Assembly (NCBI GenBank): GCA_013368515.1
Contig: JABWCI010000008.1
Span: forward strand, 1 to 55,971
DNA from: Candidatus Altimarinota bacterium
Lineage (GTDB): Bacteria; Patescibacteriota; Gracilibacteria; BD1-5; UBA6164
Length of the DNA stretch: 55,971 nt
Direction of reading: 5' to 3'
This document shows positions 13,391 to 40,017 of the stretch, piece by piece. Within the stretch, counting starts at the first letter, position 1; the number at the start of each line of letters is the position of its first letter. A program made the translations under genes and the position numbers. The notes below the pieces were generated by a model. It had not been told where the DNA came from. It searched no databases and saw only the letters and a program-made list of their open reading frames with translations.

Positions 13391-13418
13391 AAAAAACACT
13401 TGAAAATCAAGTGTTTTT
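13391..13418 (-). terminator. Terminator after the 2-oxoacid oxidoreductase operon
   Basis: AAAAACACTTGA pairs with TCAAGTGTTTTT. The stem starts at the stop codon of the beta subunit gene. Confidence 0.75.
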
Positions 13419-14019
13419 ACCATCTTTTAAAACTAGGACAAGCTTGATGAATATTTACAAGTGAAAAACCAGGATGAAGAATCGCTTCTTTTATTATATC
13501 TTTCATTTCTAAAAATTTTATACTATCAGCTGTTTTAGCAAAAGTACATCCAGCATCAATGGCCAATTTTATTGGATCAAAAGGTTGTTTAGTATTTCCA
13601 AGAGGAGTAGTTTTTGTTTTTGCTCAAATAGGAGTTGTAGGGCTTGCTTGACCAGTTGTAAGAGCATAGTTTTCATTATCCATAACTATATAAGTTATGT
13701 TTAAATCTCTTTTACAAGCATGGATAAAATGTCCCATACCAATTCAGTATCAGTCTCCATCTCAACCAGTAGCCAGTACTGTAAGTTCAGGATTTACCAT
13801 TTTTATACCAGTAGCAAAAGGTAGAGTTCTACCATGAAGAGTTTCAGCTGCATATCAGTCAATATATTGACTTGCTTTACCAGAACAACCTACTCAAGAA
13901 ACAACTACTCTTTGATGAGAAGCAATTCCTAGTTCTTCAAATGCTTTTTTTATTGCTCAGATTATAAGTGTGTCTCAACATCAAGCACACCATTGTATAT
14001 TATTTAATCAAGATCTCAT
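13417..14019 (-). CDS. korB: 2-oxoacid:ferredoxin oxidoreductase, beta subunit
   Basis: 200-residue beta subunit that binds thiamine diphosphate and Mg. Visible motifs: WCAGCGD near the N-terminus (residues about 10-16, giving cluster-ligand cysteines), GxGCSG (VVSGVGCSGKASQYI), ETLHGRTLPFATGIK, the ThDP/Mg motif GGDGDGYGIGMGH, and DNENYALTTGQASPTTP. It is shorter than most beta subunits (about 280). The alpha/gamma subunit gene ends 2 bases upstream. With it, the enzyme would oxidise a 2-oxoacid (pyruvate or 2-oxoglutarate type not distinguishable) to acyl-CoA and reduce ferredoxin. Confidence 0.9.
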
Positions 14020-14021
14020 TT

Positions 14022-15686
14022 TTATTTTTTTAATTCATTAAAATCTTCTATATAGAAAGGGAATAAGTCATATTTTCTCATATTTGATATCTTTAAATTT
14101 GGTATATATTTAAGACCAAATTCTTTTGTTATATAATTTTCTAATTGACCAGAATAATTACTTTCTATAAAAATAATTTCATCTTTTCATTCTATTTCTT
14201 TTCTTAATCTAGCATCAAGTGGTTTTAAAAATTTGATAATTATAAGACCAAATTCACTATTATTTTTTACAAATTCTCTTGCTGTATAAGTAGTAAAACT
14301 AGTAACTATAAGCATTTTTTTTGCATTTGGATTAACAACTTCATATCAATTATATCATTCTTTTTCAAAGAAATTTTCAAGTTTTTTCCATCTTTTTTCT
14401 GTAAATACTTTTTTTACAAGTGGATCTTCGCTTGTAGCTCAATATTCATCGTGTTCATAACTTGTAGCTATAAAATCACCATTTTTTGTACCTACTTTTA
14501 CTCTTGGAGAAATTCAAGTTTCATTTAGTTCATATCTTTTATAATCTTCTCCTGGATTTTCAAGCATTACTCATCTATCTATTTTTGGTACATTTAATTC
14601 TCAGATAGTTCCAACCATTTCACTTGATTGTTTATCCATTAAAACTAAAACAATACTTTGATATTTATCCGCTATATTTAGAGCTAAACCTCAAAAAGTG
14701 TAAACTTCTTCTAAAGAACTTGGGTACATAACAACATGATCAAAATCACCAAAAGTAGGATTTAGAGCATAGTTTATATCTCATGCTTCGTGATAAGTTG
14801 GAGTTCCAGTACTTGGACCAGCTCTTTGAGAAAGTACAACTGTTATTGGGAATTCAGCTTGCACAGCAAAACTTAGAGCTTCACTCATAAGTGCAAATCA
14901 TCATCAAGATGTACCACTCATAGCTCTAGCTCATGTAAAACTTGCTCATAGAGCCGAATTTATAACTGCTATTTCATCTTCTGCTTGAAAATATTTTACT
15001 CTACCATCATTTATAACTTCACTAAGAATAGTAGATGCTGGTGTCATAGGGTAAGCACTATAAAATTCAAGTCCTCATTCTATTGCTCACTTTGTTAGAG
15101 ATTTATTTCAATAAATAGTTTCTTTTGATTCTCAGATTCTTTTTATAGTTAAATCACTTTTATTTTTAATTTCATATGTATCAAAAATATTTTTAACTAT
15201 ATTCTTATTTAACTCTACTGTATCATTTCATTTTTTAGCAAATACTTTTTCTATTTTTTCAAGTATAATATTCAAATCTAGATTTAAATATTTAGCATAA
15301 ATTCAAAGTAGGTAAGTGTTATCATACTTATCTGTGATTTCAAGTTCTAATACATTAAAATTATCAAAATTTAAACCTTTTTCTTTTAATTTATTTATCC
15401 ATTTACTATTTATAATTATAGTTGAATTTTCTTTTAAGCTATGCATTTGTTTTTGTAAACTTTCAGAATTGAAGGCAAGTACTATATCTACATATTTTGT
15501 AAGAAATTTTTCTCCTGAATTGGAAATATTTACATCAAAAAAGTTTACTCATCATTTTATTCTTGATTCGTATTCTATATCAGTTATCAAATCATAACCA
15601 AGCTCTGCATAAAGCTCTGAAATAATATCAACTGTTGAATTAACTCATGCTCATGCAGGTCAAGTTATTCTAGTGTTTAGTTTCAT
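14022..15686 (-). CDS. korA: 2-oxoacid:ferredoxin oxidoreductase, fused gamma-alpha subunit
   Basis: 554 residues. The N-terminal 180 are the gamma domain (TRITGPAGAGVNSTVDIISE). The alpha domain starts near 195 (GNKSLTKGAIEGGLEFYSAY PMTPAS region), with the catalytic block YFQAEDEIAVINSALGASFT, TSGGGFALMSEAL, and the CoA-facing QRAGPSTGTPT. This gamma-alpha fusion is the KorA layout. Many glycines in the active-site region are TGA. The stop TAA lies 2 bases before korB, so translation is probably coupled. No ferredoxin-domain subunit is adjacent; the ferredoxin-reductase fusion at 37144-38643 might be the electron outlet. Confidence 0.92.
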
Positions 15687-15689
15687 CAA

Positions 15690-15922: not shown

Positions 15923-18787
15923 TTATTTAATTAGTTCTAATATATTTCTAAAATCATATATAGGAGTTGGTTTATTTATTCTTTGTTTTCAATTATACAT
16001 AACAGATTGAAGTGATATTCATTTTAAAATTATTTCTATTTCATCATCAATATTTTTTATGTAAAATTGATTTTCTTCTTTTTTATGAATTATCTCATAA
16101 TTTCTAATACCATTTTTTTCTGCAAGTGAAACCAAAATATTATTTAAATTGTTTAAATTAGAAAATACATCAATAAGTTCTTCTTTAATCTTATTTATAT
16201 TGTAAACTCATTCAAATTTTATTGTATTTCAAAAATATAAATCGGTATCAACTTTATTTACAAATTTTATACTTGGATTTATAAAACTGTGTCATGGTAA
16301 GAATTCATATTCTCAAGATAAAAATCATTTATAATAAACTTGTCAACTTTCGTAAATTATTTCTCAATTTTTAACAAATATGTTAAAATCTTGATTATTT
16401 TCTTCAACTATAGTATTTTCATATTTTATATTTATAAATCATTTTATTATATTGAAATCTCAATTTTCTCATAATAATTTATTCATCTTAAATATTCTTA
16501 CTATAACACTTTCTTCAATTACTTCTTTATCATTATTATTTTCATTTGTATTTTCTTTATCATTTATCTCTTTAGGAGGATTAAATACATATAGGAAGAA
16601 GTTCTCAAATTTAGTTTTTTCATCTACTCTACTTCAACTAGCTCTTTTATAATTTTCATCCCATATTATTTTTTCACTATCTAATTTATAAGATCCTCTA
16701 TTTATACTTTTGTCTCAATTAATAACAAAATTATATATATTATTATATTCTTTAGGAGATAATATCATATTTAAATACATTCAGCTTCATATAATTAAAT
16801 CTTCAATTTTATAACAATAAGGTTCTTCAATTCAATCTAAATCATATTTTCATACAGGATTATTACAATAATTTACTCATCTTAGACTTATTTTTAAATT
16901 TGATAAATCTAAATAATTAAATTGTTCTAGATATTTTTTTGCATTTTCAATAGATATATCATTTGAATTTTTATCTGAATTATTTGCGGTTTCTCAAAAT
17001 AGTAATTTTTTATTTTGTTCATTATAGTTCGCAACATATGATTGATAATCCTTAAGAGCAAAAATATATTCTTCATATTTTAAATTAGAACTTTCAAATT
17101 CGCTTTTAATTTGCAAATCTTTTCAAGTAGTTCATAAAATAAATTTATTCTTGTTATAATATTCTAGTATTTTTTTCATATTATTTTCAAGGGTATTTAT
17201 TTTATCTATTCATATGTTATTTTCTTTGTTTATAACAAGTAATCATTGTTTATCTAACTCATTTTTAAAGTATGATATTCTTATCTGATTAATTAGTTTT
17301 AATAGGATATTATTATATTCAACTAATCAAGTTTTTATTCTAACATTATCATCAATTGAATAATAGCTTATACTATTATTTCAATAAATATTAAATATTC
17401 ATATTATATCTTCAAATGATATTTTTTTGTTTTCATCTAGATCTTTAAACCCAGAAAAAATTATTTTATTAAGGTAGTATATAAAGTAACTTCTTTTAAC
17501 TTCATTTTCAATAGATTTTCATATTTCATAATTAATTACATTTAAGTCATAATATAATTTTTCATAATTTCTAAAGTTATATTTGAAATATAAGTCATTA
17601 AGAGAAATTAAATTTTTATCCTTCAATGTAAACTTTTTTCATGAAATCTCTGAATATAATTTAGATATATTTATCTTGTTTTCATAGTTATTTTCATAAC
17701 TATTTAAATATATATATACATAATAATTTATTATATCTATAATTTTCTCATATTCTTTTGTATTTATTTCTTTTAATTCTAATAATGTTTCAACTAGAAG
17801 TTTATTTTTCTCCTCGTTTGTTCAACTATTTATTATATCTCAAAGAGTTTTTATAATTAAATTCTTGTAATATATAGTTTTCTTATTTTCATTAACAAAA
17901 AGTATATGATACTGTTTTATTAATTTTTCTCAAAGTATAAACCCTATTTTTATATTTTTAATTTTTTTTAGTTCTTGAGAATTATTTTCTTCATTTAAAC
18001 TAACAAATTTTATAAGTTTTTCTATTTTTTTAATATCATTTTCTTCTTTTTCTCATATTACTTTTTCCAAAAATTCTTTATTAACAATATCATTTACCAA
18101 TAATTTTTGGTTTAGATAATCTAAAGTAAATCTTTGTGTGACTCTTAATAAATCTGCATTTTCAAGATTCTTGTTTTGACTAGGAATTATTTTTATATAT
18201 GTATTTGGATATAAACTAAGACTATTTATTATTTTATCATTTTCTATGTTTTTTAAATCTAAATCTATCCTTGAGTTGATTGAAAAAATTGTTGTCCTTA
18301 TTCAAGAGTTATCTATTATAAATGACATAGGTCAATTAGTTATTATCCTAAATCACTCTCATTTTACCTCATAATTATTGTTTATATCAGATATATTAAA
18401 TAAAAATATTCATTTTTTAATTTCAATCTGGTTATCTTTTATATCAATTTCACCTGATATAGATATAATTTTATCAAAGGAATTTATGTATTTTATATTT
18501 ACTGATCAAGATGAAAACTCATTTGAGTAAATAATTTCATCTTGATCTATATTTAGATAGTCTCATTCTTTTTCTAGTTTATAACTTACTTCTTTTAGGT
18601 TTTGTTCAACTTCTTTTTTTGTAAAAGTTGTGTTTAATAACCATAAGAATATTAAAAATGAAATAATTACTATGAATACTTTATTAGCTGAAATCACTTT
18701 TTCTACATTAAAATATATTAATTTTATTATATGGATTTTAGCTTTTTGTAAAGCTTTTTTCTTATTTAAAATCTGTTTTAAAAACAC
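15923..18787 (-). CDS. Very large membrane-anchored protein with FecR-like domain
   Basis: 954 residues. A basic cytoplasmic head, one membrane span (VFIVIISFLIFLWLL, about 37-52) and a long extracytoplasmic part. Residues about 85-160 resemble a FecR beta-domain (strand pattern ending IDNSGIRTTIFSINSRIDLD). The remainder is Asn/Tyr/Ile/Lys-rich, mostly helical and unrecognised. Start is the GTG at 18785-18787, which lies inside the end of the upstream phospholipase-like gene (26-base overlap); no later good start precedes the span. A role at the cell surface is likely; nothing more can be said. Confidence 0.65.
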
Positions 18788-21767: not shown

Positions 21768-24700
21768 ATGTTTAAAAAGATATTTATTACGTTTACAGCT
21801 TTTTTTATACTAAGTCTAAATTCTGACTTAGTTTATTCTGCAGAAACAAATGAGCAATCATATACTACATTATGAGTTGTTGATTTGAAAACTTTTAATG
21901 AATATAGATATAAAATTACAGATTCTTATTTAGATTTAAGAAGTAAATTTGAAGTAGATTGAAAAATTGATACTTATGTATCTGCAAAAATTTTACAATA
22001 TGCAACTGAATGACTTAAATACCTTCCAGATAGTTTATCAAATAAAAATTATTATAATTATTTGAAGACTTCTATTGAGAAATGAGTTAAATATCCTGAA
22101 AATTCATCATTTTTTGAAGAAATTGCTACTTCTATAGAAAATTTTTTAGAAAAAACTACTATTCAGAAAGTTTCTTGAAATGTAGAAGCTTTTCCTTCAA
22201 CTTGAAATGCTCCTTTAACGGTTACTCTTAGATGAAATGTTAAAGATCCTACTTGAACAAAGTTAGAAAATCATAATTATACATGGTGGATAAATGAGTG
22301 ATGAAAAAGAAAAGTTATTTGAAATAAAATATCTTTAACATATGTTTTTAAAGAAGAAGGAAATTATTCTGTTTTTCTTGATGTAACTTCAAATCATAAA
22401 AACTCACTTTGAAATTCAGATGTTTTACCATTTTCATCTAGAGCTGATATTGTAGTTAAAGAAAAAATTGCTTCAATAATTTTGAAAGTTAATAATGAAA
22501 ACTTATGACAACAAGAAGAATTAAAATTTCTACCTGATGTTGCTAGATATTGATTGTTATTTGATGCAACAAGTTCAACACCTACTTCTTGAGCTAAATT
22601 TACTAGAACAGAATGGGATTTTGGTAATTGAGTTACAAGAGTAAATGATTGAGCTCCAAATGTTGAGAGAGTTGCTTATTGAAGAGAATGAGAGTATACT
22701 GTTAAGTTAAAACTTACTACTAATGAGAATAAATCTGTAGAAAGAAAATTTATTTTAAAAATAAATAACCCTATTGCTACAATTAGAGCAAGCAATGAAG
22801 AGTGATTTATATGAGATAAGTTTACATTCTCTGCTAATCCTACTTGAAGTAGTAATAATTTGTGATATTCATGGAAAATAATTGATATAAAAAATGATAA
22901 AGAAATATTAAATAAAAATTCTTCTACTTTTACTCATACTTTTTCAGATAAATGAAAATATAATATACAACTTTATGTCACTGATCCATCATGAAATACT
23001 GATTTAGATTATAAAATTATACATATAAATTCTAGGGCACCAGAGGCTAGATTTATATATAGCGTTCCTTATCCAAATAAACCAAATACAATATTTTTAG
23101 ATGCCACATCTTCTTTTGATGCAGATTTTAGTGATGATTGAAAATTAAAGTATTCTTGGATTATAAATTGAGATAGGGTTAATCTAGATAGTCCTAATTT
23201 TAATTGATCAAATTGATACTATACTTTTTCATCTGTTTGAGATCAATCTGTTGTTCTTGAGGTTACAGATCCTGATGATATGACATCTCAAAAAACAGAA
23301 AAGATAAAAGTTAATTCTATTTTATCTGTTGAATTCTTTGCTTTTCCTAGAGTTGCTCAAATATGAAAAACATTTAGGTTTGTAGCAGATTCTCCTCAAG
23401 CTAATTTTTATGAATGGGATTTTTGAGATGGGAAAAAACAATGATGAAAAACCGATACTATATCTCATGTTTTTGATAAATCATGAGTTTATAATGTAAA
23501 ATTAAAAGTTGTTGATCAAAATGATAATTCTAATACTTTCTCAAAAAATGTTTATGTTTGAGATACAGATACTCCTTTTGCTTTTATAAATATAAAAGAT
23601 AACTTACAAAATTTTGCCTCTTATAGAGAAAATGAATGTAATTGAGAATGAGCTTATATATTAAATAGGGTTAATACTTTTTCTATTTCTTGAGATGAAA
23701 GTATAGATGTTACTTGAGAAAATACAGGATTAAGCTATTCATGGAAGATAGGAGATGTATTATATTCTTCACAATCTTTTACTAAAAAATTTGATGAGTT
23801 ATGATGTACAAAAGTCAAGCTTACAGTAAAAAGTAATAAAAGTTGAAAAGAGTCAACAAAAGAAGTTTATGTTAAAGTAGAAAATTTAAAGCCGACATTA
23901 TCAAGTTTAGATATAAGAGTTAAAGATTTGGAAACTGATCCAGTTTTAGTTACTCTTAATGCAATTTGAGCAAAAGATGCTGATGGAGTTATACAATCAT
24001 ATTTATGGTATTATTATACAGATGTTGATCCTGAACCACAAGATTTTAGAGCAACAAAAACTGATACTACTACTTTTGTTCTTCCAAAGGTTACTTGAAA
24101 TTATTATTTTGTTGTTGTGATGAAAGATAATAATGAAACAAGGTCTAATTCAGAGGATTTAAGTTGATCAAAATATTTTATAACACTAACATGAGATAAT
24201 GTTAATACTCCTATTTTAGATTTAAAAGTTAACAATAGTTCTGTCTCTATATGAGATGAAGTTGTATTTACTTCTAATGTAGAAAATATATTGTGACAAA
24301 ACTTGAATTCTAAAGTAAGTTTTTCATGGGATTTTGATGGAGATTGATTTTATGATAAAGAGACTCAAACAAATACAGTTACTCATAAATATGAGAGTTC
24401 TTGAGAAAAATATGCAAAGGTAAAAGTTAAACATAAATGATTTTCTAATACTAAGACAGTTGTAGTAAATGTTGCTAATGTTTTAAAACCAGACTTTGAT
24501 TATGTTTCTATAGGTAATGATTATATTTTCTTTGATACAAGTTTGGGAAGTCCTAAAGATTATTCTTGGGATATGTGAGATGGTAATAAAATCACAAAAC
24601 CTTCTTTTAAATATACTTATGATGATTGAAAATCTACTCATTTAGTTACACTTAAAATTTCAGAATGAACAAAATCTAGAGAAGTAACAAAAAAAGTAGT

Positions 24701-26759
24701 AAAAGATTTATCAAATTTTATAAAATCAAAAAAATCATGATTAATAGTTTTTTCAAACCAACTAATAGATGATAATGATACAATTACATTAGAAGATAAT
24801 TCAAAAAAATTATACTTTTATTTATGAAGTAATTCTTGAAGTATTTCTAATTATGTTGCCGATTTTGATATAAATTATGACTCAGATCTAAATTGATGAA
24901 ATGATGATGATGAAGATAATAGATTTCAAGATAGTTATTTTTCTAAAAATGCTATTCTAGTTGATTTAAATGAAGCAAGAGAGCAAGTTGTTAGATTATA
25001 TACTAAAGATATTTCTTGAAAATTATTAGGCTCTAAAGATATAAAAATTGTTAAAAATTATATCGATGAATCGATAGATGTTAATTCAATTGTATTTGAA
25101 TGAGTTTCAGATTCTGTTAAATTTAAGTTGGAAAAAATTAAATTAGAAGTATCTAATTTTCCCAAGGAACATAAGTTAAAATGATTAATGTATGTTCAAA
25201 AATTGAAAGAAGAATGGAATGATGATAGAGAAAAGACAAATGTAATTATTGAATTTGAATGATTTATCCAAGAAATAAATTTGCCAAAATCAAAAGAATT
25301 AATAGATCTTTTAGAGTCTCTACTTATAGAATGAGAAGCTGATAAATCAGAGAAATCTATTGCATATAATGCGTTAAAAAATCTTATACCTAAAGGTATA
25401 ACTTGTATAGAACCAACTTCTTCAGAAATTAAAGATTGATTAACATGTTATGATTTATTGGTTGCTAAATTGGATGTAATTTGAGAAAACTATAATATTG
25501 ATGAAAATAAAGAGCTTTGAAAAATAATTTTAGAAAATATCGCTGCAGATACTAATATGACTGTAAAGCAAAAGACAGATTTTAAAGCAATTTTAAATAC
25601 TTTTGTTTATTGATCAGTTTCAAATATACCTGTTGAAGAGAAAGAAGAAGTTGTTCAAGAAACACAAGACTCTAGTTCTAAATGATTATTTGATTATTTA
25701 TCAATTATAATAAAAATCTTTTGAGTAATAATTGTTATAGTATTGATACTTGTATGAATTTATTTTGTTTATTATAAATCTAAAAATAATGATAAAGATA
25801 AATCATTTACAGATTTTATATCTGATAAAACTTCTCAAGATTCTAGTAAAAATATAAATAATTCTAAAGTTGAGGATATTTTATGAAATGATGATAGTTT
25901 TAATTTTGACTTTGAAACTACAAATAAAAATAATGTTATCACTGAAAATAAGCAAGAAATACCAGATTGGTTAAAGTGAAATTTTTCAGAAGATCCTTTA
26001 TTAGAAGAAAAGGAAAAGGAAACTCCAATTGAAATTAATCCAGAAATAGAACCAGAAGTTAAATCTGAAGTTTTACCTGAATTTAAAGTTGATGATTCAA
26101 TTAAATCAGAAAATAATTCTGATGAAAAGGTTCAAGAAATACCAGATTGGTTAAAATGAAGTTTTTCAGAAGATCCTTTATTAGAAGAAAAGGAAAAGGA
26201 AACTTCAATTAAAATTAATTCAGAGATAGAACCAGAAATTAAATCTGAAGTTTTACCTGAATTTAAAGTTGATGATTCAAATAAGTTAGAAAATAATTCT
26301 GATGAAAAAGTTCAAGAAATACCAGATTGGTTAAAATGAAGTTTTCAAAATTCAGAAAATGAACTCTCTAAAGAAGAAGAACCTAAATTAGAAACTAAAG
26401 AAGAGTTAGACGCCTTTACTAAAATTGATATTGAGGATGATTTAGTTGCTGATAGTCAAGAAAATCTACCAGATTGGTTAAAGTGAAGTTTTGATAGTAA
26501 ATCAGAAACAAAAGGAGGAGATGATTTTTTAGATACTCTTATACAAAATAATAACAATGAAGATGTTGTAAAAAATTTTGATAATGAGTCAAATAATAAA
26601 ACTAAAAAAACTACTCAAACTAAAAAAACATCTACAAAGAAAAATAGTAAAACTTCTGTTGATAATTTAATTGAAAAAGAAGATAATAAAAATGATACTG
26701 AGCTTTGGGATGATTGAATGAAAATACCAGATTGGCTTAAAACAGACGATGATAAATAA
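21768..26759 (+). CDS. Giant PKD-domain surface protein with cytoplasmic PDWLKG repeats
   Basis: 1,663 residues. A signal peptide (IFITFTAFFILSLNSDLVYS) is followed by about 1,280 extracellular residues with several Ig/PKD-like domains. The clearest PKD motifs are WDFGDGKKQGGKTDTISHVF near 548, FSWDFDGDGFYD near 852 and SWDMGDGNKI near 932. A membrane span (IIIKIFGVIIVIVLILVGIY, about 1312-1332) leads to a cytoplasmic tail of about 330 acidic residues. The motif PDWLKG/T occurs five times in the tail (about 1398, 1458, 1518, 1567, 1653), two copies in a 60-residue tandem repeat. The architecture suggests a large adhesin or envelope protein coupled to an internal partner. Over a hundred glycines are TGA. 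Confidence 0.85.
25957..26340 (+). repeat. 180-bp in-frame tandem repeat in the surface-protein tail
   Basis: The sequence from the first PDWLK motif (25963) recurs with a period of exactly 180 bases at 26143 and the motif again at 26323. The two full units are nearly identical at DNA level, so the duplication is recent. It encodes a 60-residue unit with one PDWLKG motif. Confidence 0.9.
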
Positions 26760-30784: not shown

Positions 30785-30801
30785 ACCAAAGGTCTATTTT
30801 T
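30777..30801. terminator. Bidirectional terminator holding both TAG stops
   Basis: AAAAATAGACC and GGTCTATTTTT pair perfectly with an AAA loop. Each arm contains the TAG of one of the convergent genes, so both proteins end in Lys-Lys. Confidence 0.85.
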
Positions 30802-32341
30802 TTGTATCAAATTTTTCTATTATACTTGCAAATATCTTGTATAATTTTTCATCATATCAATTATTTTTTGTTAGCCAAGTTGACAAGTTAAATGCAATAG
30901 TTGGTTTAGAATATTTTCTAAAAAATATATTAAAAATACTTTCATAAGCTGTAGATATTTTTTTTGCATATTTTAACGAGTCTATTTTATTATCTAGTTT
31001 TTTTAGACTTAACTCATATTTTTCTTGATCAAATTCATCTCAAAATTCTTTAGCTCTTTCATCAACTTCAGATTTTATGTATTGTTTTATAGAATCTACT
31101 TTATAATAATTTTCAAATTCTCAATCTAGAACAATCCAATTATATTTTTTAAAATCATTTTCATATACAAATCAAACCTTATGTACTTTTCTAATAGCTT
31201 TTATTATCATATCACGATCAACATAAAAATTATCATCTTTGTCTATTAGTGCTACTACATTTTCTTTTCAAAACAATTCACAAGAAAATATATACCACTC
31301 ATAAAGTGCTCATTTTCATCACACATCTATTATGCTTACATTTTTATAATTTAAGTTAAAATAATTATCTATTTCTTCTTTTGTTAATCAATCTTTATTG
31401 ATCTTATAATAATTTTCCCATTTTGTATTTTCATATATATTTGGAATAGATATCTTTTCAGTTTCTCCTTCTACAAGTATTACGTAATCAGAAAAAAATA
31501 CTCATGCATTCTTAAATATAAGATTTATCATTATTTTATTGAATCTACCTCAAGAATTATCTATTTTTTTTATTTTTGTAGAATTCTCTTCCATTTTTAC
31601 AAAAACTACATCAGAAATTTCATACTTATCTTTTCTAAAATTTGAAACTAGGTCAGGAGAATGAGTAGAGTATAGAACTTGTGTATTTTCAGTTTCTCAA
31701 ATATCTTGTAAGATAGAATCTATCATTTTTGTCGCATGTGGATGCAAAAAGTTTTCTGGTTGATCTATCAAAAAAATAGTAAAATTTTTATTTTGTCTAT
31801 CACTTACACTATATAAGTATAGTTTTAATAAACTTACAAGTAAAGTTGTTTTTTTCTCTCCTGATTTATCATTTAATTCTTTTATTTTTTCTTTTGAAAA
31901 TCTACCTTCTTTTATTTTTTCTTCTTTATTTTTTAGTATTAAATCAATAAGTTTTAGATAACCATCTTCATTATTTTCTTTGTTTATTTTTCTATCACTA
32001 GGTATATAAATAATATTTATTTTTTCTAGTAATTTTATTGTATCTTCATTATCATTTCTTTCTATCTTTGTTTCTTTTCAATCAAAATAAGCTTCTAGGT
32101 AGATGCTTATATCTTTTCATTCATATGTAATTATAGCTTCTAAACTTAATTTTCTTTTAGGATTTTTGAAGTCTTTTTCTTTGATTTTTTTTGAGTTTAA
32201 TAGTTTTTCTATAGCTTTTAAAATAACTGTTTTTCAACTTCAGTTTTTTCAAACCAAAACAGTTTTGTTACTTCAAAAACTAATAGTTTCATTTTCTATA
32301 CTTCTAAAGTTTACTATATGTACACTTTTTATGTGAATCAT
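30794..32341 (-). CDS. OLD-family ATP-dependent nuclease (AAA + TOPRIM)
   Basis: 515 residues. N-terminal SMC/RecF-type ATPase with Walker A VGKNGSGKTVILKAI (about 28-42), signature-like LNDKSGEKKTTLLVSLLKLY, Walker B FTIFLIDQPENFLHPHAT and a sensor His in TQVLYSTHSPDLVS. The C-terminal part is a TOPRIM domain with VILVEGETEKISIP and a later DKDDN acidic motif. This is the class of OLD/OvdE nucleases; many act in phage defence alone or with a partner helicase (Gabija-like). No UvrD-like partner is adjacent, so a stand-alone OLD protein is the best reading. Confidence 0.85.
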
Positions 32342-36748: not shown

Positions 36749-37153
36749 TTATTTAAATTCTAAAATACTTTGTTTTTTAATGTAATCTTTATTATATTTT
36801 ATACTTAATTCTTTTAAATAAATGAATAATTCATTTATTTTTATTTCATTTTTATTATATTTTTCTATTAAAAATTTTAATTTTTCTTTTTCTTCATTAT
36901 CTAAGTCATTTTTAAAATATCAAAACATGTGAGATATTGCATTTATATATTTTCATTTAGTTATTTCTTCTTTTATTATTTGAAAATATATTTCTAAAAA
37001 TTCATTTTTTATTATTTCAAAATTTGTTTTATCATATTTAGAAATAATATTTCATAATGTTTTCTGTTTTTCAGGAGAATAAGCCATAAATAAATACTTA
37101 TTTACGGATTGAAATTTTATTAAATCATTTATATTTTTAAAATTTATTTCCAT
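36749..37153 (-). CDS. DUF1722 (YbgA-like) protein
   Basis: 134 residues matching the YbgA/DUF1722 pattern: an N-terminal KYLFMAYSPEKQKTLGNIIS (K..lm.y....y..lg), AISHMFGYFKNDLDNEEKEK (vl.h..GyfK..l...EK) and the C-terminal KYNKDYIKKQSILEF (YL..Q.yl). YbgA is often fused to DUF523 or next to phr; the DUF523 half is missing here. The gene begins inside the end of the ferredoxin-reductase fusion gene (10-base overlap). Function unknown. Confidence 0.75.
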
Positions 37154-38643
37154 AATTTAATTTTAGTTTGTGCTAAAATCCATAGTATTATTACTATAAT
37201 CATTGATGGGTATATTTTCATAGGAAAATATTCAGCTGCTATTATTCATCAACAAATAAAATATAAGTAACTGCTTCTTTGAATTCTTTTCCACCATATC
37301 CCAAGGTTTTTTTGAGAAAAATTATTTGAAGTTACAAGTAATATAATAGCTGTTATTTCGCTTATTCTAGATATTATTGGATAATATACTCACCATTTTA
37401 CACTTGAAAAATAATTTATAAATTTTGAAAAATCTAAAAACATAGGTCATATTAGATTTACTACTATTATACTTGATGATAATATTCAAAATGCTTTTCT
37501 TAAAGACACCAATTTTTTCAGTATTCAAAGTTTTGGAAATAAATCAGATAGTGGTCTTATAGCCATTACAAAGACTACACTCCACCAACTTAAATCAAAC
37601 ATAAATCACATGAAATTATTTATAAATAAATAATTTCAATATAAACTATCATTTAGTTTATTATAAAACCATGAAAAAGGGATTATAGTTATTGCAAATA
37701 TTATAATTATCCAAGAAAATAAATTTATATATGGTATATTTCAATTGAAAATTATATCTTTCCAAAAGCCAGGATATACTCTAGAAATAGTAAAACTTTC
37801 ATTGAAGATTTTATCCAAACTGCGTCATTTTTTTATTAATCATTCTTTTACAGCATCTACCATTTTAGGATTTCAACAAATATAGACTTCATCATTTTCT
37901 CAGATTTCAACTAAATCATCTGTAACTCTTCAAATCTTTCATTTATAACTATCACTTGGCTTAGAAACTCTTATTATCACTTTTGTATTTGGAAAACTTT
38001 CCAATTTTTCTTTATAGTATATGTCATTTTCATATCTTACTCAAAAAATAACTATTTTTTCTATTTCTTTAGGACACGCTTCTAGCATAGCAATCATAGG
38101 AGCAAGTCCCGTACCTGTTGCTATAAAAACTTTTTTATTTGTTGTATCTTTTAAATAAAAACTTCATAAAGCTCATAAAAATGAAATATTACTTCATAGT
38201 TTTAATCTATTTAAAAATCTAGAACCTCTTCATTTAGGTAGTAGTTTAACATTTAAAGTAAAACTATTTTTTGAAGCACTAGATATAGAATAAGATCTAG
38301 AAAATTTTCATAAACTGTCAGATGCTTGTAGTGAAATATATTGTCATGGTTTAAAAGAAAAATCATCACATTCAAAAGTTATTTCAAGTACATCACTTGT
38401 TAACATATTTTTCTCTTTAACTTTTGCTTTTTTAAATCATAACTTTATATTTTTTGAAGTATTTTCTACTTTTATCACATTTACAGGACAAGATATTTCT
38501 GCTTGCAATATTTCACTATCAAGTCAATCAAAATTATTTGTTATTACCTTAGATGTAGGATCAACTTTAAAAATTTGAGGACATATATTTTCACAATTTC
38601 TACAACTTATACATCAGGGAATTACTTCTACTTTTTTTATCAC
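37144..38643 (-). CDS. Ferredoxin-flavin reductase-ferric reductase-like membrane fusion
   Basis: 499 residues in three parts. Residues 1-60: ferredoxin with CISCRNC (C11, C14, C17, plus C21) and SCPVNVI, enough for one [4Fe-4S] cluster. Residues about 65-290: FNR-type module with FAD motif SRSYSIS and NAD(P) motif ATGTGLAPMIAML and a YICGNPKMV end. Residues about 300-499: six or so membrane segments (for example WSVVFVMAIRPL) resembling the ferric reductase/MsrQ fold; His ligands for haem are few, so it may carry none. It could pass electrons from ferredoxin or NAD(P)H across the membrane. Start is the GTG at 38641-38643, overlapping the apbE stop. Confidence 0.8.
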
Positions 38644-39479
38644 TTTTTATATAAATTACAATTTAAATTTGAGCTTTTATATATTTCTCAATTACTGTCT
38701 ATTATAAGTCACTCAAGTCATTTTATGCTTGAAAGTATTTTTAATGATTTATCTAATGGAGTAACAAATAATGCAGTTGAAAATATATCAGAAAAACTAG
38801 ATAATTTATGAGTTAAAAATATAGCAAGTTTATCATTTTGACTATTTTTATCAAAAGGATTAATCAAATGGTGATCTTTTTTGGTTTTTCTTTTATTTGG
38901 ACTTGATGACGCTATAGAACAATCTTGTAATTCTATCTCTCAAATTATTTTTTTATCATCCAAAGGATCTTCTAAAAATATTGTATGTTTACCTTTTACT
39001 CTTATATCTCATCAAAAATTTATTATAAAATTTTTATATTTTTTATCTAGAATTGTAAATATCTTATCAATTATATATCATTTTCAAACAGATCATAAAT
39101 CAATAGATATATTATTTTTTAGATAGATTACATCGTCTTTTATTTCTATGTTTTTATAACCAATATTTTCTTCCATAAATATATCTTCTATTCCATAACC
39201 AATATTTTCTAAAAAGGGAATAATAGTTATATCAAAGTATCACTCGGTTAAGTCAGATACTTTTTTACATAGATTTATGATAGAAAAAAGTTCTCAATCT
39301 ATTTGAGAACTTTTTTGCTTATTCAAATTATATAAATAATTTCATTTTATAAATCTAGAATATTTATTCTCAAAATTTTGTGCTTGCAAAAAACAAGTTT
39401 CAATTAATTCTTCATCTGTGTTTTCAGAATTAATTGTTATATCAAGTCTTGATCAAAATAAATTTCTAGAATATTTCAT
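38637..39479 (-). CDS. apbE: FAD:protein FMN transferase (ApbE)
   Basis: 280-residue ApbE family protein, which links FMN covalently to Thr/Ser of partner proteins using FAD. Motifs: SIDLGSVGKGYIIDKIF (about 128-144), FIINFGGDIRVKGKH, and FSDIFSTALFVTPLD, where the conserved T-D-A-L-A-T is altered to S-D-I-F-S-T but keeps the metal-binding Asp/Thr geometry. No signal peptide is visible. It sits between the FMN-binding-like lipoprotein gene upstream and the ferredoxin-reductase fusion downstream, with 7-base gaps or overlaps, so the three act together. Confidence 0.85.
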
Positions 39480-39486
39480 ATTTTTA

Positions 39487-39897
39487 TTATTTTAATGCTT
39501 TTTTAAATGCTTCAGTAGTAAGAGAACCTCAAGCAACTTCAGTATTTTTAGCTTCTTCTATTGTTTTTCAAACTAATTGAGATTTTACTTCTTCATTGAA
39601 TTCAGTTAAATCGTAAGTAGTTGCACTTACTTCTATAGTTTCAATAACACCAGTATCGCTAAGAGTATAGTTAATAACCATGTCTACTTCTCAAGCAGGA
39701 TTTGTATATGTAGCATCTATTTTAACTATATCTTTAACTGGAACCATTTCATCTTCTATAGTTTCTAATTCACTATTTATTTCACTAACAACCTCATTTG
39801 TTATGTTTTCTACATCTACTTCTGTTGTTATTTCAGGTGCTTTTGCTCCACAAGATACTAAAAATACACTAAGTACCAATAAATATAAATATTTCAT
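39487..39897 (-). CDS. FMN-binding-like lipoprotein
   Basis: 136 residues. A lipobox (LVSC, Cys at about residue 16) marks it as a lipoprotein. The mature part has an FMN-binding-domain pattern: YTNPAGEVDMVINYTLSDTG, IETIEVSATTYD, QLVGKTIEEAKN and AGGSLTTEAFKKALK, where Ser-Leu-Thr-Thr stands for the S(G/S)AT-type FMN attachment site used by ApbE. It is the first gene of the apbE group and resembles the PplA-type extracytoplasmic flavin carriers of Gram-positive electron-export systems. The exact Thr carrying FMN is inferred. Confidence 0.75.
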
Positions 39898-39984: not shown

Positions 39985-40017
39985 TAAAAAAAGAACTCTT
40001 ATTAAGAGTTCTTTTTT
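39985..40017 (-). terminator. Terminator after rplL
   Basis: AAAAAGAACTCTT and AAGAGTTCTTTTT form a stem followed by T on the minus strand. Confidence 0.8.

Follow-up and report, generated by a model that had tools for sequence, protein, structure and literature searches.

A heme-less ferric-reductase-type membrane domain fused to ferredoxin-FNR beside apbE and an FMN_bind-type lipoprotein gene in a Candidatus Altimarinota genome

Flavin-based extracellular electron transfer in Listeria follows an NADH dehydrogenase and quinone route and employs an ApbE-type transferase together with an FMN lipoprotein that carries electrons outside, as is proposed for the system described here. A likeness to this Gram-positive process was drawn in a previous sequence-only reading of the locus; it stands as an analogy, but nearer kin are the MsrQ-like flavinylation clusters (Meheust et al. 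2021, PMC8238504; Huang et al. 2024, PMC11334425) and the TM-rubredoxin-FNR protein of Vampirococcus (PMC8080830). The MsrQ-like clusters bring together the same ferric-reductase (FRD)-type domain, an NAD-binding domain, apbE and FMN_bind. Their heme His residues are conserved and their NAD domain is often C-terminal, whereas the system analysed here has an N-terminal ferredoxin (Fd)-FNR part, has lost the heme ligands, escapes detection by PF01794 and is accompanied by a leaderless ApbE. Because neither a PF01794 match nor the heme ligands are found, we do not place it in the published MsrQ-like class; it is a variant of known ApbE-linked FRD-FNR systems, the unusual feature of which is the heme-less FRD domain. 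We found no description of a heme-less ApbE-linked membrane domain in the open-access papers searched.

Three further systems invite comparison. Vamp_33_45 of Vampirococcus (Absconditabacteria), from the same radiation, likewise joins a membrane domain, an iron electron carrier and an FNR in one piece, and was described without a link to flavinylation (PMC8080830). Compared by its published description, it differs in its reversed domain order, in having rubredoxin and not a [4Fe-4S] ferredoxin, and in keeping the HxH heme ligands; the membrane domain of the matching type in our genomes (L060, L120, L123, L139) is homologous to the heme-less one. In STEAP metalloreductases the inner heme site has turned into a flavin site (PMC6194020), as proposed here, but the outer heme is kept, unlike in the heme-less clade. 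The two-gene NQR/RNF-like flavinylation systems, which occur in CPR bacteria (PMC8238504), likewise provide a single outward path from NAD(P)H through a membrane protein to an FMN_bind subunit; however, their membrane domain is NqrB/RnfD (PF03116), fused to PF00175, and not FRD, and PF03116 is absent from the genome studied here. Gracilibacteria and their relatives are described as being without a standard electron transport chain and have prompted the question of how their ferredoxin and NADH become reoxidised (PMC6851277, PMC8080830).

The locus and its three genes

The window, by which we mean the whole analysed stretch of 55,971 nucleotides, belongs to a tiny bacterium of parasitic type whose genome (G000, 1.15 Mb, 95% complete) reads TGA as glycine. 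The three genes are absent from a table-11 reading, which was dropped in favour of table 25 (TGA=Gly); all three are then intact on the minus strand and as tightly packed as had been claimed, with 7 bp between the lipoprotein gene and apbE and a 7 bp overlap between apbE and the fusion gene. The features are as follows.

39987-40017, no strand assigned: inverted repeat lying between the lipoprotein gene and that for ribosomal protein L7/L12; scored as terminator-like on the plus strand alone, although its stem is symmetric and A/T-flanked
39487-39897, minus strand: FMN_bind-type lipoprotein, 136 aa, lipobox Cys16, predicted FMN site Ser125 (codon 39523-39525)
38637-39479, minus strand: ApbE FAD:protein FMN transferase, 280 aa, signal peptide absent, PF02424
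37144-38643, minus strand: fusion protein, 499 aa, GTG start
38446-38643, minus strand: fusion residues 1-66, single-cluster [4Fe-4S] ferredoxin domain, Cys11, 14, 17 and 52 conserved
37774-38445, minus strand: fusion residues 67-290, FNR domain, FAD motif RSYS, NAD(P) motifs GTG and CGNP
37147-37770, minus strand: fusion residues 292-499, six-helix MsrQ/FRD-type membrane domain, N396 and I468 at the heme His positions, R382 and Q455 kept
13417-15689, minus strand: 2-oxoacid:ferredoxin oxidoreductase (OFOR), beta 13417-14019, gamma-alpha 14022-15689, outside the operon

Lipoprotein, apbE and fusion are considered working genes because dN/dS lies at 0.07-0.40 against the relatives G103 and G104, the minimum being that of the membrane half against G103; in the comparison with G103, the values for the Fd-FNR half, apbE and the lipoprotein are 0.18, 0.13 and 0.27, respectively. 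The downstream genes for DUF1722, DUF2177, DUF1295 and a photolyase were rejected as parts of the system, as they adjoin it only in very close relatives. Elsewhere the window holds EarP, the EF-P rhamnosyltransferase (PF10093; 32567-33568), here in a reduced genome, an OLD-family AAA ATPase with a TOPRIM domain that is a possible defence nuclease (30794-32341), and open frames of 954 aa, with no Pfam match (15923-18787), and 1663 aa (21768-26759).

A leaderless ApbE and its predicted substrate

The lipoprotein, whose C-terminal end reads ...EVAGGSLTTEAFKKALK, had been described as FMN-binding-like. The window protein itself gives no match to PF04205 (FMN_bind), but 8 of the 13 aligned family members do (best 1.7e-6), and the FMN_bind type is probable. 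In its AlphaFold model the folded part has a pLDDT of about 80 and residues 1-54 fall below 50; the fold search returned the FMN_bind structures 8p2a (Z 6.4) and 8p2b (Z 6.1), level with or below lipoate ligase and IscU. ApbE enzymes flavinylate the final residue of the motif D-x-x-[ST]-G-A-[ST] (PMC12052999), of which the lipoprotein family keeps G-x-S (13/13) but not the Asp, a residue whose mutation in a model substrate had only a minor effect (PMC12052999). Cys16, Gly123 and Ser125 are invariant in all 13 homologues and, given this invariance of Gly123 and Ser125 and the resemblance to the ApbE motif, FMN attachment is predicted at Ser125 of AGGSLTT. Of the SLTT site that had been named earlier, Ser125 and not a Thr is thus the predicted residue, since the Thr residues that follow the serine vary. 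At one locus a second lipoprotein copy lies upstream of the first and has lost the flavinylation serine (LTGTEEQIEAF; L033:1-210). Class-wide, a small FMN_bind lipoprotein with a G-x-S-L tail motif often adjoins apbE, even where the heme-less domain is missing (L050, L054, L105, L121, L164-L183 and others).

Beside the lipoprotein gene stands, as had been proposed, a gene for an ApbE enzyme (PF02424, E=1.3e-37) with intact catalytic residues: K133, D158, S192, H204, D231 and T235 are invariant across 18 sequences. Its N-terminus, as read, has no leader, and the catalytic domain occupies the protein from residue 1 or close to it. The annotated start codon is the earliest available after the previous in-frame stop, and only 7 bp separate the gene from the stop codon of the lipoprotein gene. 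The extracytosolic signal that is typical of characterised bacterial ApbEs, although not universal among them, is therefore missing, but family membership stands because cytosolic ApbEs are known (PMC12052999). ApbE is likewise leaderless at the other heme-less-domain loci and in most control ApbEs of the class; it occurs in 110 of the 353 genomes of the window's class, and those inspected are mostly leaderless. One guess would be that the lipoprotein is modified by a cytosolic ApbE before export. The 2021 survey, which reported CPR bacteria as underrepresented, retained a gene only if it encoded a signal peptide or lipidation site (PMC8238504), a filter that would probably have dropped the window cluster, with its leaderless ApbE and a lipoprotein missed by Pfam. 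Since 110 of the 353 class genomes carry an ApbE, this filter may account for part of the scarcity of flavinylation described for CPR bacteria.

A membrane domain stripped of its outer-heme ligands

The 499-aa fusion proved to be the one-piece ferredoxin-FNR-membrane protein that had been claimed, with matches to Fer4_13 (6e-8), FAD_binding_6 (3e-10) and NAD_binding_1 (3e-16) and a six-helix membrane half. In two relatives Ala replaces Cys21 of the ferredoxin domain, in line with a single [4Fe-4S] cluster that does not require this residue. As for the proposed ferredoxin input, the fused domain is present, but it represents only one option and one possible direction, since the FNR could just as well take NAD(P)H as its donor and the membrane domain also occurs without a ferredoxin domain.

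The membrane half (about 200 residues) has no Pfam match, PF01794 is found neither in the fusion nor in the genome, and the membrane profile matched nothing among PDB sequences; the AlphaFold model of the fusion, built from three sequences, has a mean pLDDT of 41 and served only for the helix count. Profile comparison places it nonetheless: hhalign aligns the heme-less set with the His-bearing set at 100% (E=1.9e-40), and the NCBIfam MsrQ model matches 20 of 24 heme-less members, under its curated cut-off (best 1.9e-5, window protein 1.6e-4). Judged by these sequence relationships, the membrane part of the fusion is an MsrQ/FRD domain stripped of both outer-heme ligands, an identity that the sequence-only reading had missed while recognising the membrane half as such.

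The outer-heme His pair of FRD proteins sits on TM3 and TM5 (His115/His222 in NOX2). Both are present in 35 of 62 complete domains and both are missing from the remaining 27, with no mixed case, and a single 100/100 branch separates the two groups in a tree computed without the ligand columns. Short FRDs have Arg (TM3) and Gln (TM5) where the inner-heme His would stand, but retain the outer pair (PMC3591440); the corresponding Arg382 and Gln455 are found in 26/26 and 27/27 members of the heme-less clade. The clade has, in addition, its own conserved residues, Ser389, Glu429, Thr431, Gln444 and Tyr461, which we consider candidates for the binding of another cofactor or for contact with the lipoprotein. 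The joint loss of both heme ligands from an FRD, in parallel with protein flavinylation, would amount to a natural experiment in which flavin takes the place of heme.

It is quite improbable that the protein is an ordinary MsrQ-like cytochrome, part of a standard ApbE-linked MsrQ-FNR cluster, binding heme from its host or environment via other residues. The domain does share its superfamily with heme-binding domains, and His-bearing sister genes in the same genome family also stand beside apbE and a lipoprotein gene (L123); however, the window domain, with N396 and I468 at the ligand positions, has no His at all, the ligand columns of the clade hold His in 0/27 and show variable replacements, mostly Asn or apolar residues, and no ferrochelatase was found in the bacterium's own genome. 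Loss of heme synthesis is not supported as the cause of the His loss and would not suffice to explain it, as the sampled genomes with the heme-type domain also lack ferrochelatase, with one exception. The sole ferrochelatase among 60 genomes scanned (G111:C26:7585-8502) contains 8 in-frame TGA codons, which points to a TGA=Gly genome and speaks against contamination.

The loss of the heme His could also signal a loss of transmembrane transfer, leaving a cytosol-facing, membrane-anchored redox enzyme, for example a ferredoxin:NADP+ reductase held in place by a degenerate membrane domain; apbE and the lipoprotein would then work for some other protein. One Gracilibacterium has been described as having an FNR bound to the membrane, with a possible role in reoxidising ferredoxin (PMC6851277). 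We regard this as rather unlikely, since the membrane half is under strong purifying selection and is the most constrained part in the comparison with G103 (dN/dS 0.07 vs 0.18 for Fd-FNR), has the conserved residues of its own listed above (S389, E429, T431, Q444, Y461), and remains linked to apbE where the FNR is absent.

Linkage to apbE and a proposed electron path

Membrane profile A3 matches 108 of the 353 class genomes, which fall into a high-scoring and a lower-scoring group. Complete heme-less fusions number 19; a further copy is truncated, and another is divided between two contigs. The three-gene set was searched for in other CPR genomes and found: lipoprotein, apbE and fusion are contiguous in ten genomes of the class, and in four more (G090, G087, G089 and G098, the last truncated where its contig stops) the lipoprotein gene and apbE are followed by the membrane domain without Fd-FNR. 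Two further genomes have the lipoprotein-apbE pair on the opposite strand next to the fusion; in seven the fusion does not adjoin apbE, which lies elsewhere, in five of them clearly beside a lipoprotein gene. ApbE is present in 29/29 class genomes that carry the heme-less domain (in G107 as a fragment that does not show the His columns) vs 81/324 others (Fisher p=1e-16), and apbE lies within 2.5 kb of 22/29 heme-less loci vs 3/35 heme-type loci (Fisher p=3e-8), both p-values being indicative because sampling relied on homology to the query and relatedness is uncorrected. Relatives were absent from viral contigs.

The domain also occurs in other arrangements. Most copies bear the fused Fd-FNR; in another class apbE, TM and FNR are separate genes (G632, L105), and in G316 (L114) the fusion partner of the membrane domain, beside apbE, is an NADPH-FMN reductase domain (PF03358, 6e-32); the presence of different cytosolic flavin reductases on the same membrane domain argues for an electron path. 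No FNR was found near the standalone membrane domains (L056-L058, L104, L059). An apparent TM-ApbE fusion at L059 was discarded, as it arose by reading through TGA in a standard-code genome and resolves under table 11 into two adjacent genes.

The standalone copies bear on whether the membrane domain is a conduit at all. It might instead, for example, deliver FAD/FMN across the membrane or dock the lipoprotein for flavinylation, with the FNR being regulatory or flavin-reducing: its gene overlaps or nearly abuts apbE in many loci, it stands alone behind apbE without FNR in the five loci just named, its heme ligands are lost, and a leaderless ApbE implies that a flavin or topology problem exists. 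We nevertheless find this alternative unlikely. Some class genomes, L174, L178 and L180 among them, have ApbE beside the lipoprotein but no heme-less domain, so that flavinylation seems independent of it, and the fusions to Fd-FNR and FMN reductase suggest a redox function, the FRD kin being electron carriers.

We prefer an electron-carrying reading, and put at roughly 0.6 the probability that fusion, ApbE and FMN lipoprotein would together form a heme-free transmembrane electron conduit. A more specific version, which we hold only tentatively and consider somewhat doubtful, is an all-flavin/Fe-S conduit in which the inner heme site of the FRD would have passed to an FNR-side flavin and the outer one to the swinging covalent FMN of the lipoprotein. 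In the broader reading, NAD(P)H, the fused [4Fe-4S] ferredoxin or both would reduce the FAD of the FNR domain, and a flavin at the cytoplasm-proximal former inner-heme site, where the Arg/Gln pair is kept, would pass the electrons outward; in the STEAP4 structure FAD is found where the inner heme of an FRD would sit (PMC6194020). The covalent FMN, attached by ApbE to Ser125, would then take up the electrons, possibly by reaching into the vacated outer heme site, and hand them to an outside acceptor. Such a system could relieve a fermenting cell that has no respiratory chain of surplus electrons from ferredoxin and NAD(P)H.

The OFOR, correctly recognised earlier in the same cell and located within the window, is a possible source of reduced ferredoxin, and in the 95% complete genome RnfD/NqrB, heme-type FRD, COX1 and ferrochelatase were not detected, which together make a ferredoxin outlet plausible. 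As regards the electron-export module originally proposed, its components, their linkage and the OFOR are thus borne out, and export to an outside acceptor remains a matter of inference. Counting against the conduit are the outer half of the membrane domain, for which there is no known cofactor, the pairing of a leaderless ApbE with an exported substrate, the standalone domains without a nearby FNR, and the seven loci in which fusion and apbE lie apart. The system is a conserved candidate electron outlet, with testable residues at Ser125, the lost heme sites and S389/E429/T431.

The Vampirococcus-type TM-rubredoxin-FNR protein may be grouped by function with the heme-less systems and may also feed a flavinylated partner, since its heme-bearing form lies beside or near an FMN_bind lipoprotein gene and apbE at two loci (L123:3319-7261, L183:1016-8441). 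One version of this protein carries two tandem rubredoxin-like stretches with two CxxC pairs each (L120:5007-6647).
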